Below are positions 7,439 to 14,253 of a DNA stretch of 46,385 nt, piece by piece (the first letter of the stretch is position 1; every line of letters starts with the position of its first letter). A program made the position numbers and the translations under genes. The notes under the pieces were generated by a model. The model was not told where the DNA came from. It did no database searches and saw nothing but the letters and a program-made list of their open reading frames with translations. The stretch is from assembly GCA_023483915.1 (NCBI GenBank), contig JAMDEO010000163.1, forward strand, positions 1-46,385, read 5' to 3'. This stretch comes from Actinomycetota bacterium. Its GTDB lineage: Bacteria > Actinomycetota > Thermoleophilia > RBG-16-64-13.

Positions 7439-8167
7439 ATGTCTGCCGGCATCACCGATTACGAGGGGCAGGACAGAGGTATCGCGAGAATCGCGGGCGC
7501 ACTGTTCATAATCGCGACGGCCGCAAGTTTGTTGAGCACGGTCTTCTTGAAATCAGCCGGCAGTTCGGACTATCTAAGCGGCGTCGCCGCGAATGGAGGG
7601 CAGGTGGCGCTAGGCGTCCTAATCCGCTTTATTGCCGCGTTCGCGTCTGCCGCCATCGCCATTTCGCTTTATCCCGTTCTCAGAAGGTACCGCAAAGGTC
7701 TGGCTCTCGGCGCGGTCGGTTTCAGGGTGATCGAGGCGACGTTCTATGTGCTTGGCGCAATCAGCGTCCTGCTGCTCCTCACGCTAAGCCAGGAATTCGT
7801 GAAGACCGGGGCTGCAGATCCGGGGTATTTCAATACGTCAGGGACACTCCTGAAGGCCCTCGACGATTGGTCTGGACTCGCAGGAGTATTCGCCTTCTAC
7901 GTGGGCGGCCTGCTGTACTACTGCGTCTTCTATCAAACACGGCTCGTTTCTCGATGGTTGTCGGCTTGGGGTGTTGTCGGAGTCACCCTGGGCACCGTTG
8001 CGGCCTTGTTGATCCTTTTCGGCGCTACCGGCTCGATGTCGACGGTCCAGATCGTTCTGAATATCCCGATCGGCATCAACGAGATAGTTCTAGCGGTGTG
8101 GCTGATCGTCAAAGGGTTCCGCCCGTCGGCGGTCCCAGCCCCGACGGGCTCTTCCGTGGCTGTGTGA
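7439..8167 (+). CDS. DUF4386-like membrane protein
   Basis: RGIARIAGALFIIATAASLLSTVFL...IRFIAAFASAAIAISLYPVLRRY...LGAVGFRVIEATFYVLGAISVLLLL...FYVGGLLYYCVFYQTRLVSRWLSAWGVVG. Confidence 0.75.
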   Translation: MSAGITDYEGQDRGIARIAGALFIIATAASLLSTVFLKSAGSSDYLSGVAANGGQVALGVLIRFIAAFASAAIAISLYPVLRRYRKGLALGAVGFRVIEATFYVLGAISVLLLLTLSQEFVKTGAADPGYFNTSGTLLKALDDWSGLAGVFAFYVGGLLYYCVFYQTRLVSRWLSAWGVVGVTLGTVAALLILFGATGSMSTVQIVLNIPIGINEIVLAVWLIVKGFRPSAVPAPTGSSVAV

Positions 8168-8236
8168 GCGGGAGTCCGGCCTGCCGAGATGGCACCGGAC
8201 AGTGGAGGCTAAGAAGCGCGCCGCTCGTGGCCCCCC

Positions 8237-8266
8237 TTGCTTTCCCGGCCGTGGCTGTTCCATAGT
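8237..8266 (+). promoter_or_regulatory. Sigma70-like promoter, likely leaderless, for the second MFS gene
   Basis: TTGCTT (8237-8242) - 18 bp - CATAGT (8261-8266), 6 bp before ATG 8273; near-identical block TTGCyTTCCCGssCGTGGCTGTtCCATAGTG upstream of both MFS genes. Confidence 0.5.
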
Positions 8267-8272
8267 GGCCGC

Positions 8273-9469
8273 ATGGCTACGCATGCATTCCAGCGCTCCT
8301 CGCGCCTGCCGCTGTACCTGACCCAAGCCCTTAGTGGGGTAGCGTATGTGACGCTCGGGCCGCTGCTCGATTCGATTCTCCGCGACCTCGGCATCCCGCT
8401 GGCGCACGGAGGCCTTCTCCCCCTCTCCTTCTTTCTCGGCCAGGTGGTTGCGCTCGTCGCGTTCAACGTCCTTCTGGCCCGCGTTCCCGTCAAGTGGTGT
8501 TTGGTGGGCGCGGCCGTGCTGCAGGCGGCGGGGCTGGGAGCCGCGGGTCTTCTGGCTCGAGGATTCTGGTCGTTCATCCTGCCCTACTTCGTGGCCGGGT
8601 GTGCAGAGGTCCTCCTAGCAGCGGTGCCCGGGATATGGATCAGCAGCCATGTCAAGGAGGGCACGGCAAGGGCCATCACGCTCATGATGATGTCGTCGGT
8701 CGCCACCATGACCCTGACGCCCGTGGTACTCGGCGTGCTGCTCAACGCAGGCGCGGGCTGGCGCACGATCCTGGCGGGGGAGGCGGGCCTCAGCCTGCTT
8801 TTGGGCATGGTCTTGGTGCTCCTCCCATTGGTCGACATCCAAGAACGCGAGAATCTGCGGTTGCGACAGGTGCGGACCGTCGCAGCGTTCAACCCTCGCC
8901 TTCTCGCCGCCATCGCAGGGGCCGCCTTCCTCTACATCGGCGGCGAAATGACCCTTGGCGTCTGGCTACCAAAGTTCGAGCTCGACACGTTCGGGGCGAG
9001 CCCAGCTTGGGCCGGATTGGCCGTGACGTTCTACTTCGTGGGTCAGATAGTGGGGCGGGTGGTGATCGTGCCCTTCACCGGCCGTCTTCTGACCTCGTGG
9101 CTGCTGTTCGTCTCGACCGGGATGATGGCTGTGTTCGCGATCGGCATAAGCCTGGCGCCTAGCCTGGCGATATCCCTGGCCCTCACTTTCGGCGCCGGCC
9201 TGGGATCTTCCGCCGCCTTTTCCTTAATCGGCTCCTACGCCGGCAAGTTCCCCTACTGGTACGGGGGCGTGGTGTATTCGGCTTTCCAGTTCTCCGCCGG
9301 CATAGGAGGGATGGTGTTCCCTTATCTCACCGGCCCGGTGGCTGCTTCCCTAGGTTTCCGAGTCGCGATCGGGTTCGCCGCGCTGCCCATGTTGATCGTG
9401 GCCTTGCTGGCCTTCCGCCTACGGGAGGCCGCCGGGGAAGCCAGGCGACTGGTGGCCAAGCCGGGGTGA
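8273..9469 (+). CDS. MFS transporter, paralogue of 3874-5088
   Basis: VTLGPLLDSILRDLGIPLAHGGLLPLSFFLG vs VSLGPLLDSILHDLGIPLAQGGLPALAFSLG in the paralogue; co-linear throughout (e.g. GGMVFPYLTGPVAASLGFRVA vs GAMVFPYLFGPVAASVGFRAA). Confidence 0.9.
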   Translation: MATHAFQRSSRLPLYLTQALSGVAYVTLGPLLDSILRDLGIPLAHGGLLPLSFFLGQVVALVAFNVLLARVPVKWCLVGAAVLQAAGLGAAGLLARGFWSFILPYFVAGCAEVLLAAVPGIWISSHVKEGTARAITLMMMSSVATMTLTPVVLGVLLNAGAGWRTILAGEAGLSLLLGMVLVLLPLVDIQERENLRLRQVRTVAAFNPRLLAAIAGAAFLYIGGEMTLGVWLPKFELDTFGASPAWAGLAVTFYFVGQIVGRVVIVPFTGRLLTSWLLFVSTGMMAVFAIGISLAPSLAISLALTFGAGLGSSAAFSLIGSYAGKFPYWYGGVVYSAFQFSAGIGGMVFPYLTGPVAASLGFRVAIGFAALPMLIVALLAFRLREAAGEARRLVAKPG

Positions 9470-12730: not shown

Positions 12731-13543
12731 ATGGAAACCTCCTTCTTGGAAAAGTACGGCCCGTGGGTTTTGGTCACCGGCGCATCCCGGGGACTCGGCG
12801 CGGAATTCGCCCGGCAGTGCGCCGAACGGGGACTCAATGTGGTCCTGGCGGCCACCAACGCGGACTTGCTGGAGTCCCGGGCGCATGAGCTGGAGCGGGA
12901 TTACGGCATAGAGACCCGGACGGTAGTGCTGGATCTGGGCCGAGAAGACATTTTGCAGCACCTTGCTCCGGCCACGGAATCTCTGGACATAGGCCTGCTC
13001 GTAAACAATGCCGGGATATCCAACGTGCGACCTTTTCTGCACAACGACCTCGACCAACTCGTGCACCAGCTCCACGTCAATGCCCGCGCCGGGCTAATCC
13101 TCGCGTACCACTTCGGCGAGAAGATGGCGGATAAAGAAAGGGGTGGAATCATCTTCCTTTCATCTGCTTCGGCCTTGCACGGCACCGCCTACTGCGCCAA
13201 CTACGCCGGTACCAAGGCCTACAACTTGATACTCGCCGAGTCCTTGTGGTACGAGCTGGGGAAGCACGGCGTGGACGTACTCGGCTTTATGGCCGGGCCA
13301 ACCAAGACTCCCGGCTGGGACGCTAATGAGCCCAGGAGCCGGCGGCTGGTGAAAGTGATGGACGCCAAAACGGTGGTAGCCGCGGCCCTGGACGCGCTGG
13401 GTAAGCGGCCCAGCATCATCGCGGGGAAAGGCAACCGATTGGGCTACTTCACCCTGGGCGTGATGATGTCTCGCGCCGGCGCCATCCGCACGCTCGGCAG
13501 GTCCATGAACAGAATGTTCGGTCCGTTCAGCAAGAGCAATTGA
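12731..13543 (+). CDS. SDR family oxidoreductase (resembling very-long-chain 3-oxoacyl-CoA reductase / 17-beta-HSD-like SDRs)
   Basis: WVLVTGASRGLGAEFARQCAERGLNVVLAATN, NNAG (LLVNNAGIS), catalytic SSASALHGTAYCANYAGTKAY. Confidence 0.9.
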   Translation: METSFLEKYGPWVLVTGASRGLGAEFARQCAERGLNVVLAATNADLLESRAHELERDYGIETRTVVLDLGREDILQHLAPATESLDIGLLVNNAGISNVRPFLHNDLDQLVHQLHVNARAGLILAYHFGEKMADKERGGIIFLSSASALHGTAYCANYAGTKAYNLILAESLWYELGKHGVDVLGFMAGPTKTPGWDANEPRSRRLVKVMDAKTVVAAALDALGKRPSIIAGKGNRLGYFTLGVMMSRAGAIRTLGRSMNRMFGPFSKSN

Positions 13544-13575
13544 GCCCCACAACCCGCGCAGGGAGGTTATCGCCA

Positions 13576-14253
13576 ATGCCCGTTTTCGATCCCGAAGTAG
13601 TCCACCAGTGCTCCCTGGAGTGCCTGGGGTTACCCAAGCCGCAGATGTTCGACGCCTTCGCCCGGTCCCTGGCGGAGCACTATCCCGGGGTGTTGGACTT
13701 CAGTCAGCCCTGGATCTACAGCATCGCCGGCGGGGCATTGATTCAGATGAAGCTGTATTACGCGTCGGTGACCGAATACATCATGGTATGGGGCACTCCG
13801 ATAGGGTCCGAGGGGCATTCTGGACGCCATTTCACCGGCTTCTGGGACACGGTCATCGACGGCGAAATGTGGTACTACGGCGAGGGGGAGTTCGAGAAGA
13901 AGGTCTACAAGCCCGGCGACCGCGTCTATGTGGGACCTGGTCAGGCGCGGGCAATGAACTTCACAAACGGCGTGTGGGCGGTGGAATACGCGAGGGGCTT
14001 CATCCCGGCGAGCGTGCCTTTCGGCATCGCCGAGGAGATTTTCGTCTGTTGGGACCTTCTCACGGCAGCGCAGACCCTCAGCCTCTACACGGACCTTGTT
14101 GCCCAGTCCTTCGGGCGGAAGTATGCGAGCGTGAAGCCGATCACCGATTCCATAAGCCGGGCGGCCTACAAGCTTACCAGGGCGCTGATCCCGGCACCGG
14201 AAGTCAGCAAGATACCGCAGGAGAACATCCGCTGGTTCCAGAGGAATACCTGA
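13576..14253 (+). CDS. ERG2 / sigma-1 receptor family protein
   Basis: EYIMVWGTPIGSEGHSGRHFTGFWDTVIDGEMWYYGEGEFEKKVYKPGDRVYVGPGQARAMNFTNGVWAVEYARGFIPASVPFGIAEEIFVCWDLLT aligns over its length with the ERG2/SIGMAR1 cupin region (GHSGR, PGD/E, GPG.A, W.VEY.RG.IPS..F..A). Confidence 0.87.
   Translation: MPVFDPEVVHQCSLECLGLPKPQMFDAFARSLAEHYPGVLDFSQPWIYSIAGGALIQMKLYYASVTEYIMVWGTPIGSEGHSGRHFTGFWDTVIDGEMWYYGEGEFEKKVYKPGDRVYVGPGQARAMNFTNGVWAVEYARGFIPASVPFGIAEEIFVCWDLLTAAQTLSLYTDLVAQSFGRKYASVKPITDSISRAAYKLTRALIPAPEVSKIPQENIRWFQRNT

Follow-up and report, generated by a model that had tools for sequence, protein, structure and literature searches.

The human sigma-1 receptor (SIGMAR1) and the fungal C8 sterol isomerase ERG2 belong to one Pfam family (ERG2_Sigma1R, PF04622). 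The reaction named for ERG2, the C8-C7 double-bond shift, is also that of the emopamil-binding protein EBP, which comes from an unrelated family (PF05241). A pair of acidic residues has been proposed for ERG2 catalysis, and wherever a ligand or substrate is known for a member of the family, it is a sterol, a steroid, or a cationic amphiphile. To our knowledge sigma-1 has no known isomerase activity despite the shared fold, and as a non-enzymatic member it makes binding without catalysis possible in this family. A 2023 paper describes sigma-1 as an evolutionary isolate, with yeast ERG2 as its only known homologue (PMC10094450). A sterol gene cluster of Calothrix with a C-8 isomerization homologue has also been published (PMC10202945), thus bacterial ERG2-type genes are not new.

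Here we analyze a member of this family encoded in an Actinomycetota metagenome-assembled genome (MAG). By the window we mean the whole stretch of DNA analyzed, 46,385 nucleotides.

A bacterial relative of sigma-1 and ERG2

The ERG2-like gene and its surroundings are described in Table 1. The open reading frame has its start and stop codons in place, as originally described, and its ribosome-binding site rates as good. In the sequence scan neither a promoter nor an Rfam RNA stood out, and terminator scores did not clearly exceed those expected from shuffled sequence. Open reading frames on the opposite strand and in alternative frames that are conserved across loci (families 1 and 3) were rejected as shadows of the ERG2-like gene.

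Table 1. Positions of the ERG2-like gene, its ribosome-binding site, and the partner gene in the window.
Feature	Coordinates	Strand	Details
Short-chain dehydrogenase/reductase (SDR)	12731..13543	+	270 aa from ATG 12731; ORF opens 12713; stop 13543; TGASRGLG and YAGTK motifs
Ribosome-binding site of ERG2-like gene	13560..13566	+	AGGGAGG, 9 bp ahead of ATG, within the 32-bp intergenic gap; read from sequence
ERG2/sigma-1 receptor-like protein	13576..14253	+	225 aa; ATG 13576, stop 14253; PF04622, phmmer, alignments, AF2, Foldseek

The protein is clearly related to human sigma-1 and to ERG2. It matches PF04622 with 155.7 bits (E 1.4e-45; gathering cut-off 21 bits) over positions 23-203 of the 210 in the profile, which upholds the family membership proposed in the original prediction. 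This is its sole Pfam match, with none to the EBP family, and the only PF04622 match in the whole host MAG (E 1.2e-45, 156 bits in that search); a profile search of NCBIfam gave no family. A phmmer search of the PDB returns sigma-1 receptors at E 1e-30 and the first unrelated chain at 0.11. Identity to human sigma-1 is 36% over the shared domain; the likeness to fungal ERG2 lies in the Pfam family and in the proposed catalytic acidic pair, the comparison being made via the family and not directly by sequence.

In the alignment the first residue of the bacterial protein falls opposite human residue ~36, past the sigma-1 transmembrane helix, and so it has no long N-terminal transmembrane helix, as had been predicted. 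It is thus not a sigma-1 receptor proper, which would have that helix and reside in the endoplasmic reticulum, and it also differs from sigma-1 by an extra C-terminal segment and by being paired with an SDR.

The ligand pocket and the predicted structure

The assignment of two pocket acids, the Asp of GFWD to sigma-1 D126 and the Glu of AVEYARG to E172, is borne out by our alignments, where they are D91 and E137. Also kept are E67/Y68 (human E102/Y103), R140 (R175), Y171 (Y206), and the equivalents of human S117 and R119, whereas human W89, H154, and W164 are exchanged for A, V, and F. Across 24 bacterial members E137 is invariant, and the D91 position is Asp except in two divergent mycobacterial rows and one with Glu, which argues that the family resemblance is not due to chance. 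A wider alignment of 39 rows has Lys at the E172 position in one Dehalococcoidia protein (L053).

A confident AlphaFold2 model, built with 22 homologues as input, has a pLDDT of 90.7 and a pTM of 0.87. It shows the sigma-1 cupin barrel with C-terminal helices, in agreement with the predicted fold, and Foldseek superposes it on sigma-1 structures 5hk1 and 6djz with rmsd 1.3-1.4 Å over ~184 columns. The top 42 PDB matches are sigma-1 receptors without exception (mostly rmsd 1.3-1.8 Å, best E 7.7e-18), followed by other cupins at E 1e-7 and worse. From this superposition and the alignment, D91 and E137 would face one cavity. According to their PDB titles, the sigma-1 matches include Xenopus structures solved with progesterone and with DHEA sulfate, and hence the sigma-1 pocket holds steroids.

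A recurrent dehydrogenase partner

The original prediction missed a conserved partner. The gene directly upstream encodes an SDR with the Gly-rich cofactor motif and the catalytic YxxxK, at positions largely conserved in an alignment of 11 partners, and the two genes are probably co-transcribed. An SDR of the same kind adjoins the ERG2-like gene in 15 of 19 evaluable loci whose ERG2-like proteins are 57-91% identical to ours, spanning Actinomycetota, Chloroflexota, Spirochaetota, and Myxococcota. In 12 of them it immediately precedes the gene in the same orientation (the window, L007-L015, where the L015 copy is interrupted by a contig edge, L017, and L018), and in three it is adjacent and convergent (L020, L049, L062); the other four relatives (L016, L019, L021, L022) have no adjacent SDR. 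The remaining flanking genes vary between loci, and the locus comparison finds no recurring gene beyond the SDR other than a downstream set in two close Dehalococcoidia (Chloroflexota) loci. In those two loci, and with gene roles read from sequence, the pair is followed by a 4Fe-4S protein, an NrfD-like membrane protein, and a molybdopterin oxidoreductase (L008:8906-11615 and L014:2318-6290).

Pairwise distances among the SDRs track those among the ERG2-like proteins (Mantel r 0.81 with 13 pairs; 0.77 with 10 core pairs, p 1e-4), as expected if both genes travel together. At the Myxococcales locus the adjacent SDR is more distant (39%), and a 45% SDR is found elsewhere in the same genome. We found no description of this recurrent, cross-phylum pair of SDR and ERG2/sigma-1 genes in the literature searched, which leaves out most subscription journals, so that its absence there is weak evidence of novelty.

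The pairing bears on whether the ERG2-like protein could be a non-enzymatic ligand-binding protein in the manner of sigma-1, one that transports or detects some hydrophobic product or substrate of the SDR. Sigma-1 itself, with its fold and the conserved pocket residues, gives this idea some footing. We think it unlikely, given that the protein retains the two acids to which ERG2 catalysis has been ascribed, that a recurrent dehydrogenase suggests a metabolic step, and that no signalling or regulatory gene recurs near the ERG2-like genes of the loci compared.

What the SDR acts on is harder to read. Its closest solved structure by sequence is a 7beta-hydroxysteroid dehydrogenase (7beta-HSDH; 5fyd/5gt9, E 1.6e-25), which is also its rank 1 fold match in the PDB, yet the identity is 28%, and the NCBIfam equivalog for that enzyme (NF050024) scores 113 bits, under its 300-bit cut-off. 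The NCBIfam 'mycolate reductase' profile scores slightly higher at 115 bits, both being far under cut-off. With such low identity and scores, and with mycolate reductase slightly ahead, these matches do not fix the substrate of the SDR. The mycolate-reductase-like match would also suit an isomerase acting on a non-terpenoid hydrophobic substrate, such as a polyketide, fatty-acyl, or xenobiotic compound, as would the thiolase, acyl-CoA dehydrogenase, or SnoaL-like genes that adjoin other bacterial ERG2-like genes. The ligands and substrates known for the family speak against such chemistry, and we consider it improbable.

Distribution among bacteria

The original prediction described the family as mostly known from eukaryotes, and this needs qualifying: members are also found in mycobacteria, Dehalococcoidia, Spirochaetia, and cyanobacterial sterol clusters. 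We gathered relatives by scanning GTDB species genomes, together with searches by class and phylum. The relatives at 57-91% identity come from Actinobacteria RBG_16_64_13, Chloroflexi/Dehalococcoidia, Bifidobacteriaceae, Propionibacteriaceae, Spirochaetaceae/Treponema, Myxococcales, Micromonosporaceae, and Amycolatopsis. In the family of the host 3 of 18 genomes have the gene, and no other genome does among 299 sampled from its class. In the phylum the count is 5 of 397 sampled, those outside the family being mycobacteria, an assignment based on L006 and on L027, a Mycolicibacterium rhodesiae record. A PF04622-type gene is present in 10 of 294 genomes from the class of a Dehalococcoidia genome, and the ERG2-like gene in 4 of 248 from Spirochaetia (the class of a Treponema genome).

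Phyla are intermixed inside one clade of the ERG2 tree, which points to horizontal spread of the gene. Because MAGs make up most of the records, binning errors could explain individual assignments, but are unlikely to explain the pattern as a whole. The tree is unrooted with respect to eukaryotes, with two animal sigma-1 sequences, and is unsafe where the branches are long, namely around the mycobacteria and sigma-1. No relatives were found in plasmids, phages, or viral contigs, and hence nothing indicates that known mobile elements spread the gene.

Other bacterial settings of ERG2-like genes

The cyanobacterial relatives (Calothrix and kin) are 38-42% identical to our protein and have the same pocket acids, with one Glu in place of D126. 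Their genes accompany a squalene epoxidase-cyclase fusion, an ERG24-like reductase, and P450 and Rieske genes, whereas the window gene has only its SDR. All four cyanobacterial sterol clusters (L023-L026; e.g., L024:9609-10109 and 7992-8588) have a PF04622 ERG2-type gene, and L023 and L024 add an EBP/EXPERA-type gene (PF05241, E 4.5e-14), so that isomerases from two families with no relation to each other are present for one named reaction. The fusion, of 1115 aa, sits beside both isomerase types, and one of the two isomerase-type genes may do something else.

In mycobacteria (L004, L005, L006/L027) each divergent PF04622 gene immediately follows a cytochrome P450 gene; the proteins of L004 and L005 keep E172 but have a residue other than Asp at the D126 position. 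There is also a second Dehalococcoidia clade of ERG2-like proteins (L051-L061, L064, L065), 31-37% identical and often with two copies per genome. Some of its loci have SnoaL-like, thiolase, acyl-CoA dehydrogenase, or 2,4-diaminopentanoate dehydrogenase-like neighbours, and this neighbourhood resembles an acyl-CoA-linked degradation setting.

Sterol and hopanoid genes

The host MAG has 3.2 Mb in 242 contigs, with 77% completeness and 4.7% contamination. At that completeness it has no match to squalene epoxidase (PF08491), which sets our protein's genomic setting apart from that of fungal ERG2. Looking for a sterol pathway (squalene epoxidase plus oxidosqualene cyclase), we find in the host a fragment of squalene-hopene cyclase only. 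Among the genomes tested, a set that leaves aside those of L049 and L062, convincing squalene epoxidase matches are confined to four cyanobacterial genomes, and none occurs in a genome with the SDR-ERG2 pair. No further steroid or sterol gene is present among the neighbours examined in the window.

A true sterol biosynthesis step (C8-C7 isomerization) in the host is what the family name would suggest, and a related clade does occur in cyanobacterial sterol clusters, including that of Calothrix (PMC10202945). The lack of squalene epoxidase and, for the most part, of a cyclase makes sterol biosynthesis unlikely in the tested genomes with the pair, for which the profile searches led us to reject it. 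For the host, whose MAG is 77% complete and shows no other sterol gene among the window neighbours examined, we regard it as very improbable. The same two absences make it more likely that the substrate is imported than self-made.

Strong squalene cyclase matches are found in the four cyanobacterial genomes, some aerobic actinobacteria, and the Myxococcales genome; full cyclases are present in Rugosimonospora, one Micromonosporaceae, and the Amycolatopsis relative. None is convincing in the tested Dehalococcoidia, Bifidobacteriaceae, Propionibacteriaceae, and Spirochaetaceae/Treponema genomes, and COX1 is absent from most of these genomes without a cyclase. In the host COX1 is present and divergent.

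The original prediction that the host shows no sign of sterol synthesis is supported by the missing squalene epoxidase, as far as a MAG of this completeness goes, but hopanoid genes are present in the genome. A host contig (C78) carries HpnH (439 bits), IspH, an HpnG-like domain, and, at the contig edge, the final 79 aa of a squalene-hopene cyclase, which makes the host a probable hopanoid producer, provided that the contig truly belongs to it. In this region (L030, C78:9000-14084) the HpnG-like N-terminal part is joined to IspH, and the fusion looks unusual.

Could the pair then tailor the host's own hopanoid, or another endogenous isoprenoid, and not an imported steroid? The host's HpnH and cyclase end, as well as the full actinobacterial cyclases, fit this proposal. 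Against it, two genomes of the same family that carry the ERG2-like gene, at 96% and 87% completeness and in one case with the full pair, show no convincing cyclase, nor do the Dehalococcoidia, Bifidobacteriaceae, Propionibacteriaceae, and spirochaete genomes, and the hopanoid contig could belong to the contaminating share of the MAG. On balance we find it rather unlikely.

A proposed function for the pair

Our preferred reading, to which we give a little under even chances, is that the SDR and the ERG2-like protein form a horizontally spread two-enzyme unit, found for the most part in anaerobes, that acts on compounds resembling steroids or triterpenoids. Taken together, family membership, the retained acids, and the neighbouring dehydrogenase speak for a conversion in two steps, in which a redox change at a ring oxygen is combined with a shift of a ring double bond. 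The ERG2-like protein would be a soluble or peripheral cupin-fold enzyme working with the upstream SDR. The substrate would be polycyclic and hydrophobic, most likely a steroid or triterpenoid imported from outside; the SDR would oxidize or reduce a ring hydroxyl or ketone, and the ERG2-like protein would shift a ring double bond by proton transfer via E137 and D91, as proposed for ERG2. The data show the homology, the fold, the conserved acids, the gene pairing across phyla, and the lack of squalene epoxidase in the tested genomes with the pair; from these we infer catalysis rather than mere binding, as well as the steroid-like substrate and the order of the steps; the exact reaction is a guess, one concrete form being a sequence of the 3-hydroxysteroid dehydrogenase/isomerase type.

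In favour of the two-enzyme unit we count the PF04622 match and sigma-1 fold, the steroid-bound Xenopus structures, the pairing in two arrangements amid otherwise unrelated flanks, the distance correlation, the proximity of the SDR to 7beta-HSDH, the lack of squalene epoxidase in the tested genomes of this clade, the lack of a convincing cyclase in the Dehalococcoidia, Bifidobacteriaceae, Propionibacteriaceae, and Spirochaetaceae/Treponema genomes, most of them also without COX1, and the second bacterial ERG2 clade inside complete sterol clusters. Against it we count an SDR specificity that is unreadable at this identity, the mycolate reductase match, the lack of another steroid gene nearby in the window, the non-enzymatic nature of sigma-1, the four relatives without an adjacent SDR, and the better-matching Myxococcales SDR situated elsewhere in its genome.

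A more specific form of the proposal is possible, though we hold it to be doubtful: a horizontally spread two-gene cassette in which a soluble sigma-1/ERG2 cupin allows anaerobes to shift a ring double bond, without oxygen, in steroids from the environment or the gut. If true, steroid isomerases would be of three kinds, the other two being the NTF2-fold ketosteroid isomerase and the SDR-type 3beta-HSD/isomerase, and the sigma-1 fold would have a bacterial metabolic setting.

Outlook

Both the natural ligand and the origin of sigma-1, a major drug target, are under debate. Purification and crystallization should be easier for a bacterial homologue that lacks the transmembrane helix yet shares much of the pocket, and its recurrent dehydrogenase partner offers a direct handle on the role of the sigma-1/ERG2 fold. 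The function of the pair is directly testable, and if the pair acts on steroids, it would represent an undescribed route of steroid change in anaerobic soils and insect guts.
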